From: Clostridia bacterium
Lineage (GTDB): Bacteria; Bacillota; Clostridia; Christensenellales; Aristaeellaceae
Direction: 5' to 3'
Assembly: GCA_017447185.1 (NCBI GenBank)
Contig: JAFSOC010000029.1
Span: forward strand, 1 to 64,000
Length of the DNA: 64,000 bases
The position numbers were made by a program, and so were the translations under genes. The notes below the pieces were generated by a model. It was not told where the DNA came from and made no database searches. It worked only from the letters and a program-made list of their open reading frames with translations. This document shows, piece after piece, positions 60,206 through 64,000 of the stretch (positions are counted from its first letter, which is position 1; every line of letters starts with the position of its first letter).

Positions 60206-60249
60206 AGCATCAGCACGGCATCCCTGTATGGTTTGCGCTGATGCTTTTT
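60206..60249 (+). terminator. Terminator of the topoisomerase-recR-rmuC operon
   Basis: AGCATCAGC pairs perfectly with GCTGATGCT, with a 22-base loop that can fold further, followed by TTTTTA. It partly overlaps the end of the converging gene. Confidence 0.65.
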
Positions 60250-60979
60250 ATTTTACAGGCATATCCTTCGTGTGTTTCCGGTCTTCCACGTCCGGTTCAA
60301 GTCCTGCGATCAATGCCAGTTTCTTTTTCCGGCTCATGCGCTTGATGTGCCACTCCCGGCTGAGCGCTTCATGCCGGTCCTCATACGCCTCCTGCCAAAC
60401 CATTTCCACCGGCAGCCTGGAGCGGGTGTATTTCGCGCCTTTCCCGCTATTGTGGGCCGCAAGCCTGGCTTCCGGATCCGTTGTCCATCCGCAGTACAGC
60501 GTGCCGTCCGCACAGCGGAGGAGATAAACATAATTCTTTTCTTTCAGCGCCGGAATTTCCTCCGGCGCGTTTTCTGCGTCCACAACCCTGAACCCTGCCC
60601 GGAGGACCGCTTCCGCGAAGATCCCCTGCCCGGGAATCAGCTTTCCGGAAAAGGTTCCGTCATATCTCTGTTTTACGCCGCAGCTGGGGCTCCGGGACTG
60701 GAGGACGACGCAGTCCGGCTTCTCCCTCTCCGCGATCTCCAGGGCTTTTTCCGCGCCCAGCCGGAAAGCACTGTCCACGGAAACGCCCTCCCGGGTCATC
60801 ACTTCCCCGTTCACGATCTCCGCCGGAACCCGGGGCACCGGCAGTCCGCCCATCACTTCCGGACAAACCGGAATCACGGTATGCCCGGACAGCAGTCGGA
60901 GGAGTTCCTCATTTTTGTTGTTTCCGCCGTTATACTTGCAGTTCTCGCCCAGCAGGCAGGCGCTGACCATGATCTTCAT
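60248..60979 (-). CDS. Fusion of DUF523 (TudS-like) and GIY-YIG endonuclease-like domain
   Basis: 243 residues from the ATG at 60979, after CGGAG. Residues 1-145 are DUF523: VSACLLGENCKYNGGNNKN, CPEVMGGLPVPR, and VLQSRSPSCGVKQRYDGTF, with the cysteines that hold an iron-sulfur cluster in 2-thiouracil desulfidase TudS. Residues 153-235 are a small UPF0213-type GIY-YIG domain: NYVYLLRCADGTLYCGWTTD, HNSGKGAKYTRSRLPVEMVW, and LSREWHIKRMSRKKKLALI. Both are known as separate proteins. A joint role in removing or repairing thiolated nucleobases is speculative. Confidence 0.88.
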   Translation of the reverse strand: MKIMVSACLLGENCKYNGGNNKNEELLRLLSGHTVIPVCPEVMGGLPVPRVPAEIVNGEVMTREGVSVDSAFRLGAEKALEIAEREKPDCVVLQSRSPSCGVKQRYDGTFSGKLIPGQGIFAEAVLRAGFRVVDAENAPEEIPALKEKNYVYLLRCADGTLYCGWTTDPEARLAAHNSGKGAKYTRSRLPVEMVWQEAYEDRHEALSREWHIKRMSRKKKLALIAGLEPDVEDRKHTKDMPVK

Positions 60980-61011
60980 GCTGTTTCTCCGTTGACAGGC
61001 GTACAGGTTGG

Positions 61012-61653
61012 TCAGTGCAGCGCCTTTCGCATGGCTTCCTGCAGCATCTCTTTCTGTTCTGACGTCAGTTTTTCGTCCGCTTCCACCTGGGCCATCATCG
61101 CTTCCATGGTTTCGCCGATCACCTTGTCCCGGTTCCGGCCGAAACGGATGCCGAAGATCGTTCCCATCAGCCGGCTGTCTTCCTTCAGGAAGATATCCAC
61201 ATACTCCCGGCAAAGCCGCTCCAGGTATTCCCGGTGCTTTGCTTCCGGATCCTCATACGTTGCCAGCACCGCCAGCAGCTGCGGGCTGTCAAACAGTTCC
61301 CGGCGCATGGCGTCTTTCCGTTCTGTGGAAAAATCGCCGGGGTTCCGGTACATCTGCAGCGCCCAGCTTTTGATAATGGAAAAGTCGATGGAACCGCGCT
61401 TCGGTTTCGGATCCGGGGTGCCGATAAACAGCAGTTCCCAGTCGATGGCGGGATCGTCCGGGCAGGCTTTCTTCGCCTCCTCCAGGATCACCTTGCGGTC
61501 CGGCAGGCTGGTCTTTTTCATGGCTTTCGCAATCCATTCCGCCGCTTCCCTGGATACTTCCTTTTCTTCTGCCACCGCGATTTTGCTGCCGCAATAAGGA
61601 CAGAATGCCATTCCCTCGCCCGTGATTTCTTTCCCGCATTTATTGCAAATCAT
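61012..61653 (-). CDS. Zinc-ribbon protein of unknown function
   Basis: 213 residues from the ATG at 61653, after CCGGAGG. The N-terminal zinc ribbon (ICNKCGKEITGEGMAFCPYC, residues 2-21) is followed by a helical domain with LKEDSRLMGTIFGIRFGRNR and an acidic, methionine-rich C-terminus. It is upstream of the DUF523 fusion by 32 bases and probably co-transcribed with it. Function is not recognised. Confidence 0.75.
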   Translation of the reverse strand: MICNKCGKEITGEGMAFCPYCGSKIAVAEEKEVSREAAEWIAKAMKKTSLPDRKVILEEAKKACPDDPAIDWELLFIGTPDPKPKRGSIDFSIIKSWALQMYRNPGDFSTERKDAMRRELFDSPQLLAVLATYEDPEAKHREYLERLCREYVDIFLKEDSRLMGTIFGIRFGRNRDKVIGETMEAMMAQVEADEKLTSEQKEMLQEAMRKALH

Positions 61654-61740: not shown

Positions 61741-61769
61741 TTGACTATCTCCGTGGAATAGCATACAAT
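61741..61769 (+). promoter_or_regulatory. Promoter for the YidC-sulfatase fusion gene
   Basis: TTGACT (61741-61746), a 17-base spacer, then TACAAT (61764-61769), 35 bases before the start codon. Confidence 0.7.
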
Positions 61770-61804: not shown

Positions 61805-64000
61805 ATGATTCTGGATATTCTGCACAGGTTGATCCTCGGCCCGCTTGAACTGCTGTTCGACGCGGTTTATGCCATCGGCTACCGGATCACAGGAAATCCC
61901 GGCCTGTCCATTGTCCTGCTGAGCCTTATCATGAACCTGCTGATGCTCCCGCTGTACCGCCGGGCTGACGTCCTGCAGGAGGAAGAACGTCTCCAGGCGC
62001 AGACAATGAAGCCCGGGATCGACAAAATCCGGCGGGCTTTCAGGGGCGACGAACGCTTCATGATCCTGCAGACCTATTACAGGCAGAATAACTATAAACC
62101 CTGGTATGTGCTGAAGGGTTCCCTCTCCCTGCTGCTGGAGATCCCTTTCTTCATCGCGGCCTACCGTTATCTTTCCGGGCTGAGCCTGCTGCAGGGCGCC
62201 GCCTTCGGGCCCATCGCCGACCTGGGGAAGCCGGACCGGCTGATTTCCCTTTTCGGCACGCAGGTTCACCTGCTTCCCATTCTGATGACAGTGATCAATA
62301 TCGTTTCCGGGGCGATCTATACCCGGGAAATGCCGCTGCGGAGCAAGATCCAGCTGTACGGAATGGCCCTGGTTTTCCTGGTGCTGCTGTACAATTCTCC
62401 CTCCGGGCTTGTTTTCTACTGGACCCTTAACAACCTGTTCTCCCTGGTCAAAAACATCATCCTGAAGAAAACCGGAAGCGCGGAAAAAGCGGCTGCGAAA
62501 AAGGCAGCGCCTGGGAAGCCCGCCGGCGCCCCTGCAGCAGGCAGGCAGTACAAGGTTCTCTTCTACAGCTGTTGTGTTTTCCTGACGATCCTCCTGGGGA
62601 TCCTGATTCCTTCTGCGATCGTGAACGCTTCCCCCGCGGAGTTTGTGGAGCTGGATGATTTCCGGTCCCCGCTGCGCTATGTGCTTTCTTCCGCGCTGCT
62701 GGCTGCCGGAACGTTCCTGATCTGGTGCGTGATCTTCTTCCGCCTTTCCTCCGACAGAGGCAGGAAACGCTTTGCGCTGGCCGCCGCGGTCCTTTCCGTT
62801 GTCGCGGTTATCAACTATATGTTCTTCGGTACGGGATACGGCAACCTGACCGCGCTCCTCAAATATGACAATCCCCTGTCCGTGCAGGTTTCGGATACGC
62901 TGCTGAACCTGGGGATCATCCTGCTGGCCGCCTGCGTGGTAGTCTTCATCTGGAAGAAAAAGCCGGAGATCCTGAAGGCGATCTGTATCGCGGGCTGTAT
63001 CGGCCTCACCGTCATGTCCGTCAGCAATATCCGCGGCATCGGCGCGTCCTTTGCGGAGCTGGAAGTCCTGACGGAAAAGGAACGGGAAAAACCCTCCTTC
63101 ACCCTGTCCCGCACCGGAAAGAACGTGGTCGTCATCATGCTCGACCGGTGCATCAGCGGGTTTGTTCCATATATCTTTGAGGAAAACCCGGGGGTGGCGG
63201 AGCAGTTCCGGGGCTTCACCTATTATCCGAACACCCTGTCCTTCGGACGGAACACAAACGTCGCCACGCCTTCCCTTTTCGCCGGCTATGAATACCGTCC
63301 CTTTGAGCTGGACAAGCGTTCGGACACCGGGCTGCCGGAAAAGCAGAACGAAGCCCTGAAGGTCCTGCCGGTGCTGTTCATGGAAAACGGCTATGACGTC
63401 ACTGTATGCGATCCGCCCTATGCGGGATACCTGTGGATCCCGGATCTGGGCATTTTCGACGATTATCCTTCCATCCACCGCTATATCACCCACGGTGCCT
63501 TCATCGACAACAGTGAAGCCATCCGCAAGAAGAACCGAGTCATCAACCGCAACCTGTTCTGCTACAGTGTTTTCCGTGCGTCCCCTGTGCTGCTGCAGGC
63601 CGGCCTCTACAATGACGGAAGGTATAACGAAGCGGAAGCTCTCCATATTTCTGATGAGAGCAGCGTGATCTTCACGGAGGAATCCGAAGTCCGGAGCACA
63701 GGCATTTCGGATGAATTCATGAAGGCCTATACTGCGCTGCAGCATCTGCCTGCGATGACAAAGACGGACACGTCCGGTGAAAACACCTTCCTGATCCTGA
63801 GCAATACCGCCACCCATGATGTCACCATGCTCCAGGAGCCGGCCTTCGTTCCGCAGCAGATTGTGGACAACGCAGCCTATGAGGCTGCGCATAAGGTCCG
63901 CACCTCAGCCGCCGGCGGACGCCTGGAGCTGAAAACCGCCGAGCAGATGGAGCATTACCAGAGCGATACCGCCGCCCTGATCCAGCTGGCCCAGTGGTTC
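61805..64000 (+). CDS. Membrane insertase (YidC/Oxa1)-like domain fused to a sulfatase-type transferase, 3' end cut by the window
   Basis: 732 codons are open from the ATG at 61805 (AGAGG upstream) to the window edge. Residues about 20-222 match YidC/Oxa1: GNPGLSIVLLSLIMNLLMLP, a charged hairpin with FRGDERFMILQTYYRQNNYK, SLLLEIPFFIAAYRYLSGL, and YNSPSGLVFYWTLNNLFSLV. An Ala/Lys-rich linker (223-247) and four or five more membrane helices (250-405) follow. From about 438 comes an alkaline-phosphatase-superfamily domain starting NVVVIMLDRCISG (metal-binding Asp447), with NTLSFGRNTNVATPSLFAGY holding the likely nucleophile threonine, as in LtaS-type and phosphoethanolamine transferases. The typical YidC gene context (rnpA, jag) is absent. 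It is probably a surface-polymer or lipid-modifying enzyme. Confidence 0.88.
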   Translation, partial: MILDILHRLILGPLELLFDAVYAIGYRITGNPGLSIVLLSLIMNLLMLPLYRRADVLQEEERLQAQTMKPGIDKIRRAFRGDERFMILQTYYRQNNYKPWYVLKGSLSLLLEIPFFIAAYRYLSGLSLLQGAAFGPIADLGKPDRLISLFGTQVHLLPILMTVINIVSGAIYTREMPLRSKIQLYGMALVFLVLLYNSPSGLVFYWTLNNLFSLVKNIILKKTGSAEKAAAKKAAPGKPAGAPAAGRQYKVLFYSCCVFLTILLGILIPSAIVNASPAEFVELDDFRSPLRYVLSSALLAAGTFLIWCVIFFRLSSDRGRKRFALAAAVLSVVAVINYMFFGTGYGNLTALLKYDNPLSVQVSDTLLNLGIILLAACVVVFIWKKKPEILKAICIAGCIGLTVMSVSNIRGIGASFAELEVLTEKEREKPSFTLSRTGKNVVVIMLDRCISGFVPYIFEENPGVAEQFRGFTYYPNTLSFGRNTNVATPSLFAGYEYRPFELDKRSDTGLPEKQNEALKVLPVLFMENGYDVTVCDPPYAGYLWIPDLGIFDDYPSIHRYITHGAFIDNSEAIRKKNRVINRNLFCYSVFRASPVLLQAGLYNDGRYNEAEALHISDESSVIFTEESEVRSTGISDEFMKAYTALQHLPAMTKTDTSGENTFLILSNTATHDVTMLQEPAFVPQQIVDNAAYEAAHKVRTSAAGGRLELKTAEQMEHYQSDTAALIQLAQWF

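Follow-up and report, generated by a model that had tools for sequence, protein, structure and literature searches.

The stretch of Clostridia bacterium DNA analysed here (assembly GCA_017447185.1, contig JAFSOC010000029.1, positions 1 to 64,000 of the forward strand; 64,000 nucleotides, hereafter the window) ends inside a gene that joins a YidC/Oxa1-type insertase core to a sulfatase-type enzyme in one reading frame. This YidC–sulfatase fusion is a genuine gene architecture, and it is half of a two-gene cassette. The other gene encodes an enzyme of family PF04464, the CDP (cytidine diphosphate)-glycerol phosphotransferase type. In a mirrored form of the cassette it is the PF04464 enzyme that carries the YidC domain, and the sulfatase-type enzyme is a protein of its own. 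The cassette occurs in many bacteria of the gut and rumen; it probably adds small charged groups to the cell surface, and its make-up suggests that the YidC fold can be used for a job other than protein insertion. The reading we favour is a surface phospho-headgroup relay in which a YidC-derived groove would handle a lipid-linked intermediate. We put the probability of that whole chain at roughly 0.45; a role in surface decoration, taken alone, is likely.

Architecture of the fusion

The gene opens with an ATG at position 61,805 and runs to the end of the window (61805..64000, + strand; codons 1–732 of 879). A first-pass annotation, which saw only the window, had described a YidC core, membrane helices and a sulfatase-type domain in a single frame. 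With the 3′ end now in hand (the stop lies at contig position 64444, contig G000:C26, and the product has 879 residues), this description is borne out by Pfam and TIGRFAM-type profiles and by hydropathy.

Residues 20–222 (61862..62470, + strand) are the YidC/Oxa1 core of a divergent paralogue. They align with the core of Escherichia coli YidC, and the YidC similarity claimed for them is detected by Pfam 60KD_IMP (PF02096; residues 33–222, 86.4 bits, cut-off 35) and by TIGR03592 yidC_oxa1_cterm (87.9 bits, cut-off 84.3). YidC is also the best solved relative, by sequence, of this first part. Five hydrophobic segments, placed by hydropathy only between about residues 257 and 403 in a region of about residues 251–412 (62555..63040, + strand), lead on to an alkaline-phosphatase/sulfatase-type catalytic domain that begins at residue 439 and ends beyond the window (63119..64000 within it, + strand). 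Here the first-pass annotation needs a qualification: the Pfam Sulfatase profile (PF00884) does match residues 439–767, at 24.6 bits, slightly below its cut-off of 25. In the 49 of 61 named fusion proteins covered by profile scans (E-value ≤0.01), 60KD_IMP is found in 49 and Sulfatase in 48; TIGR03592 gives one protein, L095, 66.5 bits, under its cut-off of 84.3.

All five catalytic positions are invariant in the 61 named fusion proteins: Asp447, a putative metal ligand (63143..63145, + strand), Thr484, the putative nucleophile (63254..63256, + strand), His671, a putative active-site histidine (63815..63817, + strand), and Asp751 with His752, both 3′ of the window end. Their roles are those which we take over from the alkaline phosphatase superfamily. 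A profile built from 22 catalytic domains, among them that of the window protein, was searched against the PDB at E-value ≤10; the best match was a phosphonate monoester hydrolase (5.7e-6), and sulfatases were found too. The description of the enzyme as LtaS-like holds for layout and catalytic residues and fails for sequence membership, no entry named LtaS being among the 42 PDB sequences matched.

Distribution of the fusion

The genus sample comprised 45 genomes, 12 with the fusion and 33 without. Sixteen proteins of the fusion kind from the 12 genomes were aligned and have 35–77% identity to the window protein. PF02096 is above cut-off in 14 of them, one of which (L069) is truncated where its contig stops. 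In L080 it reaches 31.4 bits, under cut-off, and in L081, where the YidC part is reduced, it is not found; a profile of the fusion class still gives these two proteins 110 and 39 bits, respectively.

A scan of named genomes returned at least 592 stretches, at least 571 of them with a relative of some part of the protein, and the best 80 yielded 79 loci. These loci align to the query from residue 1–18 through 847–879, an end-to-end coverage that partly reflects the ranking (best 80 of at least 571 relatives). By their labels they come from Clostridia, mostly of rumen and gut, from Schwartzia succinivorans and from genomes labelled Eggerthellaceae and actinobacterium; Butyrivibrio sp. INlla21 and Schwartzia succinivorans DSM 10502 are among the named isolates. 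Could an error of sequencing or assembly have joined two genes here? The 79 named loci and the 14 genus proteins with a Pfam-detectable YidC part have it in a single frame with the catalytic part, which makes such an error, named in the first-pass annotation as a finding that would refute it, next to impossible.

The survey across Clostridia proposed there shows a patchy distribution. Evenly drawn samples of 196 genomes from the class and 398 from the phylum contain the fusion in 7 and 3 genomes, respectively, the window genome being counted in each. In other families of the order, PF02096 lies in frames of 638–713 residues, longer than the usual yidC there (among the matches listed, G114:C183:1078-1836, G141:C3:191526-192074 and G281:C29:25331-26098); these may be further fusions.

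An additional YidC with an altered groove

PF02096 proteins of the genus fall into three classes: canonical yidC, YidC–PF04464 fusions and YidC–sulfatase fusions. Canonical yidC, in frames of 285–432 residues, is present in 38 of the 45 genomes and in all 11 other genus genomes bearing the fusion; outside the genus, 14 of 14 genomes with fusions of either kind have one yidC of canonical size (241–456 residues). In all of these 14 genomes the YidC part of the fusion is an extra paralogue beside ordinary yidC. The separate standard yidC that the first-pass annotation proposed to look for is thus found there and was not found in the window genome (88.7% complete), where a PF02096 search gave only the fusion. 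Since the other fusion genomes of the genus have canonical yidC and this genome is incomplete, an assembly gap is the likeliest explanation.

The YidC part is the best conserved portion of the fusion, with a mean pairwise identity among the 61 named proteins of 0.615, compared with 0.470 for the catalytic domain and 0.335 for the membrane part. Its groove chemistry appears changed, because the place of E. coli Arg366 is occupied by Asn in 59 and Ser in 2 of the 61 fusions, versus Lys or Arg in 60 of 60 canonical YidCs and 14 of 14 YidC–PF04464 fusions. Retention of the basic groove residue, a point raised by the first-pass annotation, is therefore contradicted; in the window protein the residue is Asn44 (61934..61936, + strand; alignment with E. 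coli YidC). The place of E. coli residue 429 is Glu in 49 and Gln in 12 fusions. The place of E. coli Tyr517 is Trp in 61 of 61 fusions (Trp206 in the window protein, codon 62420..62422, + strand, by the same alignment) and in 57 of 60 canonical YidCs. The polar residues Ser40, Thr162, Asn165 and Asn209 are invariant in all 61, and the cytoplasmic loop region of YidC is retained.

Chen et al. (2022, PMC8920935) describe the positive groove residue as strictly conserved in the YidC family and report that E. coli YidC R366N is functional when residue 517 is Trp. We therefore rejected the lost arginine, by itself, as proof of lost insertase function, as the fusions have that Trp. Indeed, the YidC part might still work as an insertase that serves specifically its partner or the membrane segments of its own chain, which is close to the first-pass suggestion of an insertase devoted to a surface modification. 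The retained loop region and the match of YidC models in 49 of 49 proteins agree with this, the natural Asn–Trp pair is one that works in E. coli YidC according to the same paper, and the presence of canonical YidC leaves the fusion copy able to specialise. We nevertheless consider it unlikely: the basic residue is lost in every fusion and kept in every canonical and mirrored protein compared, and in the mirrored cassette the stand-alone sulfatase-type enzyme has membrane segments but lacks a YidC part. The other first-pass suggestion, a repurposed domain for handling lipid or polymer, fits best, given the extra paralogue, the altered groove and the phosphotransferase-like partners; the lipid-handling step itself is one that we infer.

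A quick tree of 73 rows, which included 18 of the 61 named fusions and, from the genus, 7 of its 30 canonical proteins (SH-aLRT, the approximate likelihood-ratio test, without bootstrap), recovered the YidC–sulfatase class and the mirrored YidC domains each as a clade with SH-aLRT 100 and a long stem. Two independent recruitments of YidC are not supported, as a tree with the two in a joint clade scored higher and had a p-value of 0.87 in the approximately unbiased (AU) test.

A two-gene cassette and its mirror image

The next gene, P0002, begins 1 base pair (bp) after the fusion's stop codon, just beyond the window, and encodes 415 residues. It matches PF04464 at 53.3 bits (cut-off 22.1). Among solved structures TarL matches it best, though weakly (E-value 0.0048), and it falls outside the TarL and TarF equivalogs (20.9 bits, cut-off 1000, and 18.4 bits, cut-off 550). 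Both this gene and the mirrored cassette lie outside what the first-pass annotation could see.

The association of the two genes is close. A P0002-like gene is present in 69 of the 79 named loci, and in 66 of the 79 it is on the same strand and within 200 bp or overlapping, often by 4 bp. A stand-alone P0002-like gene occurs in 11 of the 12 fusion genomes of the genus; in the exception, G006, the fusion lies at the edge of a contig. Of the 33 genus genomes without the fusion, G003 has the whole gene and G029 part of it, and each of the two also contains a fusion fragment. Similarly, in the class-wide draw of 196 (E-value ≤1e-30), the gene is found in 7 of 7 fusion genomes and 0 of 189 without. 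One of those 189, G404, has a mirrored fusion. All 69 P0002-like enzymes carry an N-terminal YxDPG segment.

YidC–PF04464 fusions number 13 genes in 10 genomes of the genus; four were tested, and all four score above cut-off with both profiles. In 7 of 15 loci the YidC–PF04464 fusion adjoins a stand-alone sulfatase-type enzyme that has the same Asp, Thr, His and Asp-His residues. In the remaining loci a reduced form adjoins it in 1 of 15 and lies elsewhere in the genome in 4 of 15; in the other 3, which include L081 with a reduced fusion close by, neither form was seen adjoining. This third arrangement, the reduced form, is a sulfatase-type protein close to the fusion with a YidC remnant or none, recognized by its match pattern in 7 genomes. 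The profile of the fusion class matches the start and a middle stretch of 5 of the 6 reduced forms tested, at 32–40 bits, and reports no match in the sixth (L078). Among the 7 genomes a YidC–PF04464 fusion is present in 5, undecided in 1 (G005, where a PF04464-type match lies close to a contig end) and absent in 1 (G008). Most enzyme pairs thus have a single full YidC domain, which can sit on either enzyme.

A YidC domain that can sit on either partner might simply be a scaffold, joining the cytosolic and extracytoplasmic enzymes or anchoring the PF04464 enzyme and moving nothing. Co-variation is in keeping with this: pairwise distances in the YidC part correlate more closely with those in the neighbouring P0002-like enzyme (r 0.71) than with those in its own catalytic domain (r 0.62), and the catalytic domain correlates with the P0002-like enzyme at 0.64 (64 pairs; for each value, 0 of 2000 permutations reached it), all three values including the shared ancestry of the loci, for which no correction was made. 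Moreover, the YidC domain of the mirrored form stands in the place of the separate enzyme's N-terminal YxDPG segment, the alignment starting at P0002 residue 34–55, and the YidC part is reduced or undetectable in the 6 reduced-form loci aligned and in L081. A mere anchor is, however, unlikely to be the best conserved part of the protein with four invariant polar residues, and we find this explanation doubtful.

The mirrored cassette has an N-terminal peculiarity of its own: 3 of its 7 separate sulfatase-type proteins (L089:11196-13619, L091:3138-5591, L221:6780-9050) have YIDPS near the N-terminus together with a hydrophobic segment, resembling the YxDPG segment of P0002. We do not claim that this segment was swapped for the YidC domain, as a search with a profile of the YxDPG segment did not pick out the YIDPS proteins above shuffled sequences and so gave no support for kinship.

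Copy number varies as well. At least two fusion copies of more than 700 residues are present in 23 of the 79 loci. Tandem arrays of at least three frames of the YidC–sulfatase kind, some cut by locus ends, occur in L167, L168, L132 and L143, with one PF04464 gene or none within the stretch; perhaps one loader serves several outside transferases.

Headgroup genes beside the cassette

Choline-kinase/LicC, phosphonate or related genes lie within 3 kilobases (kb) of the cassette in 31 of the 79 loci, and in 23 of the 44 loci whose sequence extends 3 kb or more to each side. The 31 comprise 17 loci with a choline/ethanolamine kinase, 5 with phosphoenolpyruvate (PEP) mutase, 3 with a fusion of a nucleotidyltransferase to a threonine-phosphate-decarboxylase-like domain and 6 with a LicC-like gene alone. 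Genes were placed in these families by BLAST matches to representatives that had been checked against Pfam and NCBIfam models. Of these representatives, one PEP mutase, one phosphonopyruvate decarboxylase and one 2-aminoethylphosphonate (AEP) transaminase exceed their NCBIfam cut-offs, and the threonine-phosphate-decarboxylase-like domain matches at 184 bits, under a cut-off of 290. Headgroup-type genes are concentrated at the cassette, with 58 at 0–2 kb (2.33 per 10 kb) and densities per 10 kb of 0.61 at 2–4 kb, 0.11 at 4–6 kb and 0 at 6–8 kb; the families were picked for recurring in the same loci, so that these counts are partly circular and the fall-off with distance is their only control. 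Such genes also stand beside some mirrored cassettes (L092, L222 and L081).

The partner's family raises a different substrate. The cassette might make or decorate a polyglycerol-phosphate or ribitol-phosphate polymer from CDP-glycerol and phosphatidylglycerol, the choline and phosphonate genes serving other steps; this concerns the substrate and is compatible with the relay. The PF04464 match of P0002, its weak TarL hit and the LtaS-like layout of the fused enzyme all point that way. Against it stand the TarF and TarL models, far under cut-off, the glycerol-3-phosphate cytidylyltransferase profile, which finds nothing above cut-off in the window genome (43.5 bits, cut-off 165.4), and the clustering of headgroup-type genes at the cassette. 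We judge a glycerol- or ribitol-phosphate product rather unlikely.

Two kinds of composite protein were noted as well. One of about 600 residues, combining the LicC-like nucleotidyltransferase with the threonine-phosphate-decarboxylase-like domain, stands beside the cassette at L097:12080-13876, L110:4915-6720, L172:8185-9984 and in L092, and could make a CDP-amino-alcohol. In several genomes of the genus, some without the cassette, LicC-like and cytidylyltransferase-like matches share one frame (G009:C12:42122-43123, 690 residues), and the window genome has a cytidylyltransferase-like match within a 489-residue frame (G000:C33:3825-4091).

A possible relay and its relation to known systems

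We propose the following chain. At the inner face of the membrane, the PF04464-type enzyme would load a phospho-headgroup activated by CDP or cytidine monophosphate (CMP) onto a membrane lipid or lipid-linked acceptor; the neighbours of related cassettes suggest choline, AEP or a related amino-alcohol. The YidC-derived domain, unneeded as a general insertase, would then offer its polar, membrane-open groove to the headgroup of the intermediate, which would cross to the outer side or be presented there. Finally, the extracytoplasmic domain would take the phospho-headgroup on its threonine and pass it to a surface polymer; for this step the superfamily and the conserved residues are observed, and the reaction is conjectural. 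Hydropathy and knowledge of the family suggest that the YidC core ends inside the cell. After it one would expect a cytosolic PF04464 domain in the mirrored form and, in the fusion, five membrane segments leading to an enzyme outside; both fit that predicted topology.

We favour this relay because it parallels multi-component glycosylation systems and because E. coli YidC scrambles lipids in vitro. The latter is reported, with related insertases scrambling in simulation, in the preprint of Li et al. (2023, PMC10491306). As for the former, a review (PMC8035078) describes CsbB-GtcA-YfhO-type systems as cytosolic loading of a lipid, a flippase and an outside transferase. The cassette likewise offers a cytosolic transferase, a polar-groove membrane domain and an outside transferase; a phospho-headgroup would replace the sugar, and a YidC-derived domain the GtrA- or Wzx-type flippase. 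Also in favour are the close association with the partner gene, the mirrored cassette, the YidC–PF04464 fusion found alongside most reduced forms, the high conservation of the YidC part, its closer co-variation with the neighbouring enzyme and the clustering of headgroup-type genes. The stronger claim, that the YidC fold is a dedicated translocator of lipid-linked phospho-headgroups (choline phosphate, aminoethylphosphonate and the like) placed on either enzyme, we make tentatively, as a possibility we doubt more than we believe.

A number of observations weigh against the relay. No headgroup-type gene lies within 3 kb in 48 of the 79 loci, nor in 21 of the 44 with at least 3 kb on both sides. 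LicD, which we take to be the known phosphocholine transferase, was found in 2 of the 74 neighbour proteins scanned (129 neighbour frames were picked, 79 on the cassette strand, 5 of those left out of the scan), which leaves room for a different enzyme at some loci. The window genome, at its stated completeness, has no choline kinase match and a LicC-like match of only 26.6 bits, and it shares the shortfall in glycerol-3-phosphate cytidylyltransferase noted above. Choline kinase is not tied to the cassette in the genus: of 8 genomes above cut-off, only G033 has the fusion. We therefore rejected choline as the headgroup of the window genome, where its kinase was not matched. The shared ancestry within the distance correlations belongs here too. 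So does G008, which has a sulfatase-type protein with a YidC remnant and in which no partner and no full YidC fusion were found. With the YidC part reduced or undetectable in G008, L081 and L078, the domain would appear to be dispensable in cis.

The component families are known; measured against the open-licence literature in PubMed Central, in which we found no YidC–sulfatase or YidC–PF04464 fusion described, what is new is their combination, the mirrored form and the context. Like YidC/Oxa1/Alb3 proteins, the fusion has the core profile match, the cytoplasmic loop, the Trp at the 517 place and the polar groove positions; unlike them, it is joined to a phosphotransferase-type enzyme, is additional to canonical yidC, has Asn or Ser for the basic groove residue and mostly Glu where Gln or Thr is usual at the 429 place. 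With LtaS/EptA-type enzymes it shares the five hydrophobic segments followed by the catalytic domain, and differs in the YidC domain placed in front and in the absence of LtaS from its PDB matches. P0002 and the four mirrored fusions tested resemble TagB, TagF and TarL in matching PF04464, whereas P0002 is small with an N-terminal YxDPG segment and the mirrored enzyme has a YidC domain. Genes of the kinds that form CDP-choline or CMP-AEP, as in the Lic and Pnt pathways (LicA, LicB and LicC; PepM, Ppd, AEP transaminase and PntC), stand beside many cassettes; the difference is that LicD is rare there and the two-gene cassette occupies the place of the expected transferase.

The Pnt steps after CMP-AEP are called enigmatic by Rice et al. 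(2019, PMC6697681), and the cassette may be a candidate for that transfer step. If the YidC fold is indeed such a dedicated translocator, it would represent a flippase or scramblase class new to surface-polymer synthesis and would fill the late gap in the pathways by which Clostridia decorate surfaces with phosphonate and, in some cases, phosphocholine. For YidC/Oxa1-type insertases we know of no dedicated lipid role. In these cassettes fusion links a YidC paralogue, in either of two arrangements, to phospho-headgroup enzyme families in genomes that keep their ordinary yidC; a lipid role of insertases is therefore testable, also in named isolates.

Genomic surroundings

The first-pass annotation gave the gene its own promoter, and a promoter-like site, TTGACT-17-TACAAT, does lie 35 bp 5′ of the start codon (61741..61769, + strand). 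It matches the consensus at 10 of 12 positions and is a consensus match only, with 2 such sites in the region, both strands pooled, versus 0.6 expected from shuffles. The statement that the fusion is not next to rnpA-jag also stood, as neither is among its neighbours. Upstream are rmuC and two genes on the opposite strand and, judged by eye, gyrase-type genes and recR. Searches of the 64-kb window gave neither a tRNA nor an Rfam match at gathering score. A single frame on the − strand at 60248-61213 combines 2-thiouracil desulfurase-type and GIY-YIG domains. Beyond the window, an 89-codon frame that by eye looks like a membrane protein (L002:10683-11020) overlaps the end of P0002, and an inverted repeat, also seen by eye, lies 3′ of it near the contig end.

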